Shown here: in pieces, positions 1-29,271 of the stretch
Numbering within the stretch: the first letter of the stretch is position 1
How the letters are laid out: each line of letters begins with the position of its first letter
Origin: Thioploca ingrica
GTDB taxonomy: Bacteria; Pseudomonadota; Gammaproteobacteria; Beggiatoales; Beggiatoaceae
NCBI GenBank assembly: GCA_000828835.1
Contig: AP014633.1
Coordinates: forward strand, 3,162,001-3,226,000
DNA: 64,000 bases
Direction: 5' to 3'
Notes under the pieces: generated by a model
Seen by the model: the letters and a program-made list of their open reading frames with translations, nothing else
Databases searched by the model: none
What the model was told of the DNA's origin: nothing
Translations under genes and position numbers: made by a program

Positions 1-1065
1 GCCCGGGTTGAAGGAATTAAGACTGGCAAGGGTGGAAATGTGTTAGTGGAAGCCGGAGAATTGCAGCTCATTGGGGGAGCTAGCATTGGTAGCATTTCTG
101 CAGCGGATAAAGAAAGACAAAGTAGTGAGGCTGGTAATATCACTATTCGCGTCACTGGGATAGTAAAATTATCCGGTGTCAATGCACATGGTGAAACGGA
201 AGACGGTTTTGGTAGTGGTATTTATGTCCACACCCGCGGAGTAGAAGACAGTGCCGGCGACGGAGGAATGCTGGATTTAGAAGCGGGTAGTCTCATTATT
301 GAGAACGGAGCCGTTATCTCCAGTAGCACTTCTGGAAATGCCAAAGGGGGAGATATTACCATTAAAGTCCGTGATGCTATTTTAATTAATGGTGACTCTT
401 CAGCTATCAAACTCAATTCGCCTGGTGAAGTACAATTAACCTATAGAAAAGATTTCAACAAGACTGAACCGGACTACTCTATCAGTGGGATTTATGCTAA
501 ATCTTCTGGTTCTACTGATAGATCGGGTGAAGCTGGGCAAATTTTCATCTCCACGCCGATTCTTAAACTCAGTAATGGTGGAATGGTGAACACTTCTACT
601 CAAAATGCGGGCGGGGGTAACATCACCATGAAGATTCCGCATTTAACTTACCTGCAAGCCGGTGAAATCACGACCAGTGTACACGGTGGTAAAGGGAATG
701 GGGGTAATGTGACTATCGAAACTCCGCGCTTTACCGTGTTAGACAACTCCAGTATTGTTGCCCAAGCGGATAAAGGTTATGGTGGCAATATTCGTATCGT
801 CGCCGAACATTTTTTAAAGTCATATGAAAGCTTAATCAGTGCTTCCTCCAGACTCGGAATTGATGGTGAAGTGATAATTCCTTTCTCGGATAAAACCATT
901 AATGGCAACTTGCTCACTTTATCCTCAAATTTCGAGGACAATAGTCATCAATTGATTCCATGCCAAGGCAGTTTAGATGCCAAGCGCAGTCGCTTTAAAG
1001 TAAACCTCATAGAAGGTGTACCTGACTCGCCAGAAGATTTCCAAAGCAGTCACTCTTTCTATTAG
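1..1065 (+). CDS. C-terminal part of a filamentous-haemagglutinin-like two-partner-secretion surface protein (5' truncated by window edge)
   Basis: The reading frame is open from base 1, so the gene starts outside the window and only about 355 C-terminal residues are seen. The visible part is built from short beta-helix turns with the recurring pattern GG(N/D)ITI(K/R)V (for example GGDITIKV, GGNITMKI, GGNVTIET, GGNIRIVA). Such turns stack into a right-handed beta-helix in secreted haemagglutinin-like exoproteins exported by a TpsB/FhaC-type porin. The end (SRLGIDGEVII, a lone Cys in QLIPCQGSL, then SRFKVN and a P-x-SPEDF motif) is the usual closing module of this family in cyanobacteria and sulfur bacteria. 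Function is probably adhesion or a surface coat; the substrate is unknown. No partner porin lies in the window. Confidence 0.8.
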   Translation, partial: ARVEGIKTGKGGNVLVEAGELQLIGGASIGSISAADKERQSSEAGNITIRVTGIVKLSGVNAHGETEDGFGSGIYVHTRGVEDSAGDGGMLDLEAGSLIIENGAVISSSTSGNAKGGDITIKVRDAILINGDSSAIKLNSPGEVQLTYRKDFNKTEPDYSISGIYAKSSGSTDRSGEAGQIFISTPILKLSNGGMVNTSTQNAGGGNITMKIPHLTYLQAGEITTSVHGGKGNGGNVTIETPRFTVLDNSSIVAQADKGYGGNIRIVAEHFLKSYESLISASSRLGIDGEVIIPFSDKTINGNLLTLSSNFEDNSHQLIPCQGSLDAKRSRFKVNLIEGVPDSPEDFQSSHSFY

Positions 1066-27584: not shown

Positions 27585-28271
27585 ATGGAACTTTCTTATC
27601 TAATTGATGTTATCTTACATCTGGACAAATATTTAGTCGAATTTACCACTCAATATGGCTTTTGGATTTATCTGATATTGTTTCTCATTGTGTTTTGTGA
27701 AACTGGCTTAGTGGTGACACCTTTTTTACCGGGAGATTCCTTATTATTTGCAGTCGGAACACTGTGTGCAGTAGGGGAAATCAATATAACAACGATATTA
27801 CTCCTGCTGATAATCGCAGCAATTCTAGGAGATAGCATTAACTATTGGATAGGGAATATTATTGGGCCAAAGGCGTTCCAGGATGAAGATTCTAAATGGT
27901 TCAATAAAAAATACTTGGAACGGACTCATCAATTTTATGAAAAGTATGGTGGTAAAACCATTATCATTGCCCGTTTTGTGCCTATCATCCGAACTTTTGC
28001 ACCTTTTGTCGCCGGTATTGGGCAAATGACGTATTCTCGGTTTTTACTCTACAATGTCGTTGGAGGAATTGCTTGGGTTACTCTGTTGCTGTACGCTGGC
28101 TATTTCTTTGGCAATGTGCCCATCGTCAAAAAGAATTTTTCTCTGGTTATCTTAATTATCATTATTCTATCTCTCATGCCAGCCGTTATTGAATTTTGGC
28201 GCCAGCGTCGCTTGCAACCCGTCGGTAATTCACCTGCAACCAAGGAAACCAATCAAGCCCGTGGGGAATAA
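27585..28271 (+). CDS. DedA family inner-membrane protein
   Basis: A 228-residue membrane protein of the DedA/VTT family. The re-entrant loop motifs are FLPGDSLLFAVG near residue 50 and ARFVPIIRTFAPFVAGIGQM near residue 130, with the conserved Glu (FCETGLVV) and Arg residues. Family members flip undecaprenyl phosphate or phospholipids and support membrane homeostasis. The C-terminal tail is basic. The four-hairpin array downstream begins about 160 bases after its stop codon. Confidence 0.9.
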   Translation: MELSYLIDVILHLDKYLVEFTTQYGFWIYLILFLIVFCETGLVVTPFLPGDSLLFAVGTLCAVGEINITTILLLLIIAAILGDSINYWIGNIIGPKAFQDEDSKWFNKKYLERTHQFYEKYGGKTIIIARFVPIIRTFAPFVAGIGQMTYSRFLLYNVVGGIAWVTLLLYAGYFFGNVPIVKKNFSLVILIIIILSLMPAVIEFWRQRRLQPVGNSPATKETNQARGE

Positions 28272-28430
28272 ATTTAAAACCCATTTAAATTGGTAAGCGA
28301 CTTAGAATTGACAAACCCGTTGAATACTTGACGACCTATTCATGATAAGCCAGTGAACTAAAGAGATTACTTCTGTTTTTAATTAGCCACGTTGCCACTT
28401 GTTATTACACTCATTAAAAAATAACTAAGG

Positions 28431-28514
28431 AATATGGTATAGATATTGCCCCTAATTTCCTATTCCTCCTCATGTTTTTTGCCTCTCAAGTTTATAATTT
28501 GAGAGGTCTTTTTA
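28431..28514 (+). ncRNA. Putative sibling small RNA A with intrinsic terminator
   Basis: First of four similar units between the DedA gene and the 104-residue gene. It begins AATATGGTATAG, carries the C-rich motif CCTCCT at 28465-28470, and ends in a perfect 8-bp stem (28482-28489 with 28499-28506) followed by a T-tract. The C-rich motif is complementary to a Shine-Dalgarno sequence, a hallmark of small RNAs that block ribosome binding. No reading frame with a start codon fits it. Length near 85 bases. RNA start is a guess from the conserved 5' motif. Confidence 0.5.
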
Positions 28515-28554
28515 TATGGAGAGTTACAATCTTTTTAAGATAGCTCTCATTTTT

Positions 28555-28655
28555 AATGATGGCAGATATTTTGCCTAATTCAATACTATCCTCCTTTGTA
28601 TTGTTAATGCTCCTCTTGATCTTTCATAAAGAAACGGAACAAGAGGAGTTTTTTT
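28555..28655 (+). ncRNA. Putative sibling small RNA B with intrinsic terminator
   Basis: It begins AATGATGGCAGATATT, aligned with unit A, and shares TTGCC..TAATT and ATCCTCCT. The CCTCCT motif (28590-28595) lies in the loop of a perfect 6-bp stem CAATAC (28581-28586) / GTATTG (28598-28603), which would present it for base pairing. The terminator is a perfect 9-bp stem (28610-28618 with 28640-28648) followed by seven T. A 34-codon frame starting at 28556 overlaps it; sibling units lack an equivalent, so RNA is favoured. Confidence 0.5.
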
Positions 28656-28719
28656 ATTTATAAAAATACCCGCTATCTTGTCATTAACTATAAGAATGAT
28701 TTCCTTTTTAAAAATCAAA

Positions 28720-28808
28720 AATATGGTAAACAAATTGCATAAGCAACTGTGGACTTCTCCTTATGTGTGGTTGGGCCTCTCTATCGTTTTAGTGAGGGGC
28801 CTTTTTTT
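28720..28808 (+). ncRNA. Putative sibling small RNA C with intrinsic terminator
   Basis: It begins AATATGGTAAAC and shares 16 of 19 bases with the start of unit A (AATATGGTA, then ATTGC). The motif TTCTCCTT is at 28755-28762, partly in the loop of a CATAAG/CTTATG stem (28738-28743 with 28760-28765). The terminator stem pairs 28774-28781 with 28794-28801 (one G-U), then seven T. A 30-codon frame from 28722 overlaps it and is not preferred because no Shine-Dalgarno is seen. Confidence 0.5.
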
Positions 28809-28830
28809 AACCTAATTATCCCGATTTTTT

Positions 28831-28930
28831 AATAAGTGGTACCCGATTAACGTGACCATTTATTTAATAACATCTCCTTAATGTATAGTAGTTGATTCAG
28901 CCTTTCTTCACCTTTGAAAGGCTTTTTTTT
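28831..28930 (+). ncRNA. Putative sibling small RNA D with intrinsic terminator
   Basis: The most diverged unit. CTCCTTA (28874-28880) forms the loop of a 4-bp ACAT/ATGT stem, again exposing a CUCC motif. The terminator is a perfect 8-bp stem (AGCCTTTC at 28899-28906 with GAAAGGCT at 28916-28923) followed by eight T. Its 5' boundary is guessed by analogy with the other units. Confidence 0.45.
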
Positions 28931-28956: not shown

Positions 28957-29271
28957 CTAATGTTCTGTGGGCGGAATTAGATTATTTCCTCGATATTTGA
29001 TAACTGCCAATCTTACAATTTCTAACGCTTCTTGATGTGCTGGTAACTTATTTTCAAAGGGATTCAATGCCAGTCTTTCTTGGGCTAAACAATTGATTAA
29101 AGCAAAAGCAGCAATTTCAACAGCGATAGGTTCATTCCGTAAGGCCTCCTGATTTAAGCCTTGTTTTATTAACTCCATTTTAAATGCAGCTACTAATTCT
29201 TTAATCGTTTCTTGTAATTCATTGGCTGCTGCTTGGTAATCTGCTTGCATTGTTTCTTTCCATCTCCCCAA
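28957..29271 (-). CDS. Hypothetical small helical protein
   Basis: A 104-residue protein, all predicted helix, no signal peptide (TIKELVAAFKMELIKQGLNQ, LALNPFENKLPAHQEALEIV). I do not recognise it. A second possible start is the Met at residue 8. It faces the small-RNA array tail to tail and is transcribed away from the lipoprotein gene at 29403. Composition looks like a real cytosolic protein. Confidence 0.55.
   Translation of the reverse strand: MGRWKETMQADYQAAANELQETIKELVAAFKMELIKQGLNQEALRNEPIAVEIAAFALINCLAQERLALNPFENKLPAHQEALEIVRLAVIKYRGNNLIPPTEH

Follow-up and report, generated by a model that had tools for sequence, protein, structure and literature searches.

A window of 64,000 nucleotides, the whole stretch of DNA analysed here, was taken from the single-contig, 4,810,005-base genome of Thioploca ingrica. 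It contains an array of four short plus-strand units (A to D) that is likely to encode tandem, RpoN-driven sibling small RNAs (sRNAs) which block ribosome binding by pairing with Shine–Dalgarno regions. Units A, B and C would each have a sigma-54 (RpoN) promoter and an intrinsic terminator of their own (for D the promoter is not recognised), and an activated bacterial enhancer-binding protein would set RpoN polymerase to making RNAs of ~54–70 nt; the predicted unpaired 5′ ends of these RNAs bear (C)CUCCUU, which spells out the 16S rRNA anti-Shine–Dalgarno tail. These ends would pair with the Shine–Dalgarno region of chosen mRNAs and stop ribosome binding, Hfq on the U-rich terminator tail probably assisting; the bases 3′ of the core vary among the siblings (type C has AUGUGUGGUUGG, A has AUGUUUU) and would govern target choice. 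We infer the transcription, start sites, pairing, repression and Hfq dependence of this scheme. The giant sulfur bacteria of the Thioploca/Beggiatoa group, which are difficult to grow in culture and matter for the cycling of sulfur and nitrogen, gain a conserved family of sRNAs whose promoter class is clear, and control of the family thereby becomes testable. The family joins sigma-54 sibling sRNAs with anti-Shine–Dalgarno pairing, both known themes, in a new minimal form that consists of a single unpaired 5′ seed and a terminator. Its members are very short genes, often in tandem and mostly with a sigma-54 promoter each, and the copy of the ribosome's mRNA-docking sequence with which each RNA begins suggests that they shut down translation of selected genes.

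The array (Table 1) lies between gene 27585–28271 on the plus strand, upstream of it, whose product we take from its sequence to be a DedA-like membrane protein, and a small minus-strand gene (28957–29271) that converges on it. The original prediction of four plus-strand terminators closing these units holds, with U-tailed hairpins present at all four 3′ ends, and so do the motif common to A, B and C and the CCTCCT or CTCCTT of all four units. A simple terminator scan returns the unit A terminator only, since the terminators of B, C and D fall outside the loop sizes and stems that it allows. Within the window, no Rfam family reaches its gathering threshold and there is no tRNA match.

Table 1. 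Features of the array, in window positions.
Feature	Position	Strand	Basis or remark
Candidate activator (enhancer) site for the array	28300–28345	+	Conserved in congener; putative function
Unit A, sigma-54 −24/−12 promoter TGGTATAGATATTGC	28435–28449	+	Matrix ranks
Unit A, predicted sRNA of ~54 nt, UAUUCCUCCUCAUG... plus terminator 28481–28507	28461–28514	+	Start predicted from promoter; 3′ end 28514/28515
Unit A, CCUCCU	28465–28470	+	
Unit B, sigma-54 promoter TGGCAGATATTTTGC	28560–28574	+	Matrix ranks
Unit B, predicted sRNA of ~70 nt, CUAUCCUCCUUUG... plus terminator 28609–28649	28586–28655	+	3′ end 28655
Unit B, CCUCCU	28590–28595	+	
Unit C, sigma-54 promoter TGGTAAACAAATTGC	28724–28738	+	Matrix ranks
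Unit C, predicted sRNA of ~59 nt, UGGACUUCUCCUUAUGUGUGGUUGG plus terminator 28773–28802	28750–28808	+	3′ end 28808
Unit C, CUCCUU	28757–28762	+	
Unit D, sibling, terminator ~28899–28922 plus U tract	28867–28930	+	Transcript-model match; 3′ end 28930
Unit D, CUCCUU	28874–28879	+	

The motif common to A, B and C is TGGYA...TTGC, in which exactly ten bases separate GG from GC (GG-N10-GC), and it ends 16–18 nt 5′ of CTCC. Sigma-54 promoters have GG at −24 and TGC at −12 (PMC3844500). Whereas the motif had been assigned to the RNA in the original prediction, its spacing, its matrix ranks and the diverged −11 to −1 region mark it, on sequence evidence, as a −24/−12 sigma-54 promoter, so that the predicted RNAs are about 54–70 nt long and not the 80–100 nt first proposed. 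Among ~128,000 window positions, the A, B and C sites take ranks 1, 2 and 3 with a matrix derived from members in other genera; a second, made solely from published Salmonella sigma-54 sites, ranks them 71, 3 and 23 in the whole window, and within the array they head the plus-strand sites, clearly ahead of the fourth. Across the family, the best Salmonella-type site within the preceding 110 bases sits 11–31 bases before CTCC in 45 of the 48 units that have the motif. The array thus has the features of sigma-54 sRNA genes, namely the −24/−12 element (A–C) and, in the same genome, rpoN and activators; A, B and C have such an element properly spaced from the RNA, whereas in D none is recognised. 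Elsewhere in the window, a strong sigma-54-like site (TGGCATCTAAACTGC, 968–982, minus strand; ranks 4 and 5 by the two matrices) lies antisense inside reading frame 268–1065.

Forty-one of the 43 family genomes have rpoN, and that of T. ingrica encodes one copy, about ten sigma-54 activators (including NifA-, LuxO- and GlrR-like proteins) and Hfq. The Qrr1–5 RNAs of Vibrio are sibling sRNAs with sigma-54 promoters, the activator LuxO and Hfq (PMC2680268); the array resembles them in its several siblings, its sigma-54 promoters, the enhancer-binding activators and Hfq encoded alongside and the presence of a LuxO-like protein, but shows no sequence relation (no Rfam match). This LuxO-like activator (genome 4686955–4688364; L154/L166) scores 648 bits to NF041946, for which the cut-off is 800. 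Its orthologues occur in many array-bearing genomes and, in a departure from the Qrr system, are missing from some (for example, G003, G015 and G019). Pxr of myxobacteria also has a sigma-54 promoter, with tandem paralogues in Cystobacter (PMC5568312), and QseF/GlrR drives glmY, a sigma-54 sRNA of enterobacteria (PMC6075780). Pxr and GlmY/GlmZ share the promoter class with the array, and a GlrR-like protein is encoded here too, at genome positions 3567640–3569067, but they are multi-stem RNAs that lack an anti-Shine–Dalgarno 5′ end. As a universal regulator we rejected both the LuxO-like and the GlrR-like protein, neither having an orthologue in every array-bearing genome. The GlrR site, TGTC-N10-GACA, is not enriched upstream of the units, where no common enhancer motif or dyad was found, and no dyad of the 28300–28345 block is common to other loci. 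That 46-base block, ~115–160 bp 5′ of the predicted start of A, shows 43/48 identity with the congener where the surrounding DNA has diverged, and is the best local candidate for an enhancer site that an RpoN activator could bind.

The core of the RNAs, CCUCCUUA, is the sequence of the 3′ tail of 16S rRNA. Bacteria of this group use the same Shine–Dalgarno/anti-Shine–Dalgarno pair as E. coli (PMC4679880). Pairing of the RNAs with Shine–Dalgarno regions seems the simplest reading, because their core equals the 16S tail and because NfeR1 and NmsR provide precedents; translation blocking, which the original prediction also proposed, is what we infer from it. NfeR1, a C-rich anti-Shine–Dalgarno sRNA of Alphaproteobacteria, blocks ribosome binding on ntrB, and has three hairpin-loop copies of CCUCCUCCC and a promoter without a sigma-54 signature (PMC10746234); CcsR1–4 form a tandem gene set and are cut from one RpoHI/HII precursor (PMC8307010). 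NfeR1/alpha-r14 and CcsR1–4 share the C-rich anti-Shine–Dalgarno motif with the array, and CcsR the tandem arrangement as well, but alpha-r14/CcsR carry CCUCCUCCC in loops, whereas the array units have a single, predicted unpaired 5′ copy of (C)CUCCUU and a sigma-54 promoter each (A–C). NmsRA/NmsRB of Neisseria are tandem siblings whose single-stranded anti-Shine–Dalgarno stretches repress translation (PMC5362039); alike in both respects of layout, they differ from the array in their −35/−10 promoters, three stem-loops and an anti-Shine–Dalgarno that is internal rather than 5′-terminal. The array has the features of such siblings: a conserved single-stranded anti-Shine–Dalgarno (given the predicted starts), tandem arrangement and intrinsic terminators.

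We consider it doubtful that the units are instead RpoN-driven sponges, whose CUCCUU would titrate a protein or some other RNA that contains GGAG motifs, rather than mainly silence mRNAs. The seed is generic and several near-identical copies suit titration, and a pattern scan for the extended seed complement before ATG gave scattered single matches (none in the T. ingrica genome) and no conserved mRNA target; however, the core equals the anti-Shine–Dalgarno tail, those sRNAs with comparable motifs that have been tested work on mRNAs, and the sequence adjoining the core is conserved by sibling type, like a target-specific seed. With regard to mRNA silencing, 24 of the 42 larger reading frames of the window have a Shine–Dalgarno of at least 4 bases by a generous count, so a strong site is not something that every gene has. 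For LuxO orthologues as a group no strong Shine–Dalgarno is seen, and a Qrr-like loop on luxO is accordingly not supported. A perfect complement of the type-C seed, CACATAAGGAG, occurs at G034:C271:28557–28575 (L102), preceding a LuxO-like paralogue, and at G009:C44:71192–71211 (L114), in a genome without the sRNA, preceding a gene that adjoins rpoN and that we take from its sequence to be HPF-like; both are single cases and possibly chance. It seems unlikely that silencing extends to a lineage-wide sigma-54 circuit of filamentous sulfur bacteria, with bursts of ~55-nt RNAs from near-identical genes firing together and broadly occupying strong Shine–Dalgarno sites; were this true, the family would be a tunable translational brake and not a regulator of few targets.

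With starts placed 12 bases past the −12 C, the predicted RNA is a single-stranded 5′ end with CCUCCU or CUCCUU followed by an intrinsic terminator. Folded from +1, A and B have a fully unpaired 5′ 20–23 nt holding CCUCCU, and the 5′ end of C is unpaired in the centroid structure. The terminator stem is supported by covariation, 8 of 9 pairs having changes on both sides; it scores 0.48, whereas shuffles reach 0.22 and slid versions no more than 0.19. Comparison with the array of a congener (G001, on a 16,596-base contig) gives identities of 80–87% in the −24/−12 boxes, 20–55% in the −11 to −1 spacers and 74–100% in the RNA 5′ ends (C 24/24, A 18/20, B 17/23); conservation that ends past −12 and returns at the predicted +1 would be expected where a sigma-54 promoter precedes an RNA whose 5′ end is functional. 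Longer sRNAs of 80–100 nt, starting at or before the common motif and holding CUCCU in hairpin loops, are improbable. Unit B can pair CAAUAC/GUAUUG around CCUCCU, some distant members (L062, L077) can form 7-bp stems and the flanks pair better than shuffled flanks, but 3′ flanks swapped between members pair equally well, there is no covariation, the B stem requires bases 28581–28585, which lie 5′ of the predicted start, and D has no robust loop hairpin; the common motif, moreover, has sigma-54 spacing and is followed by the diverged −11 to −1 region. The original prediction is partly supported: it names the correct kind of element, errs on three points (motif within the RNA, loops and length) and overlooks the sigma-54 promoters, which are the array's most telling feature.

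Unit D, which was outside the training set, is matched at E = 0.004 by a model of A–C-type units that includes the promoter and at E = 0.001 for the whole genome by R3, a model restricted to the predicted transcribed part; in its 5′ part, 26/27 positions agree with the congener. Upstream of it stands GG-N10-AC, which ranks 207 with the other-genera matrix and 1573 with the Salmonella matrix. By its sequence D is a genuine sibling, one for which no sigma-54 promoter can be recognised; it may use a different promoter or rely on transcription that continues from C. In the congener, the CCTCCT and the terminator of unit B are both changed, and this unit looks eroded.

Searching for more copies with covariance models, as the original prediction had proposed, reveals relatives across the Beggiatoaceae. 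The promoter-containing model, which has A, B and C among its training units and matches them at E = 2e-9, 6e-8 and 1e-14, respectively, finds members in other genera with E down to 1e-13; the array is no product of chance. R3 gives 40 matches at E ≤ 1e-4 in the 43 whole genomes of the family, 39 of which have GG-N10-G(C/T/A) upstream at the expected place (one of these, in G060, contig 130, was found at full length by the promoter-containing model and not re-read with R3); the sole exception, in G021, lacks both a sigma-54 site and CTCC. Most of the loci read were fetched first by the promoter-containing model, and R3 independently recovers the same places. Units with CTCC and promoter are present in 21 genomes and 11 of 25 genera, the named relatives with the motif being Thioploca, Candidatus Parabeggiatoa, Candidatus Halobeggiatoa and Thiotrichales HSG1. 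Tandem groups of three or four units exist in three other genera (four each in G003 and G027, L059/L060; four in G028, L061; three in G018, L010). Among the relatives two sequence types recur, CATTCCTCCTTATG (A-like) and CATCTCCTTATGTGTGGTTGG (C-like); unit C represents the most widespread type. A second unit in G011 (L068:3980–4053) has no sigma-54 promoter, and several family genomes have rpoN and no such sRNAs. A class-wide search of about 370 genomes, which scored few candidates per genome and in which absence is not proof, gave no convincing copy; its weak matches (G296, G251, G128, G095 and G232) were rejected, as sigma-54 site, motif and terminator never stood in the right order. As far as these searches show, the family is new: no Rfam family matches it, and no described sRNA family for the Thioploca/Beggiatoa group was found.

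This comparative evidence gives good support to the original proposal of tandem sibling sRNAs with exposed CUCCU that form a family in the lineage. Terminators are common between genes, but surplus terminators or cis elements whose sigma-54 sites go unused, and no regulatory RNAs, make a very improbable account of motif, promoter and terminator in fixed order across those 21 genomes and 11 genera, in different gene contexts and in tandem copies. Short peptide or leader peptide genes are scarcely credible: an ATG lies just past CTCCTT in most units and B and C contain frames of 27–45 codons, but the conserved short reading frames that the original prediction had set against conserved RNA structure were not found, the frames varying in length and sequence and being sometimes two codons long or absent, and CTCCTT is the complement of a Shine–Dalgarno, not a Shine–Dalgarno. 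At ten loci in five genera (L010, L012, L023, L059, L060, L061, L065, L066, L077 and L078) the units point at a convergent peptidase gene, presumably of an M48-type metallopeptidase by its sequence, often with only about 10 bp from terminator to stop codon; the Thioploca array has a different location.
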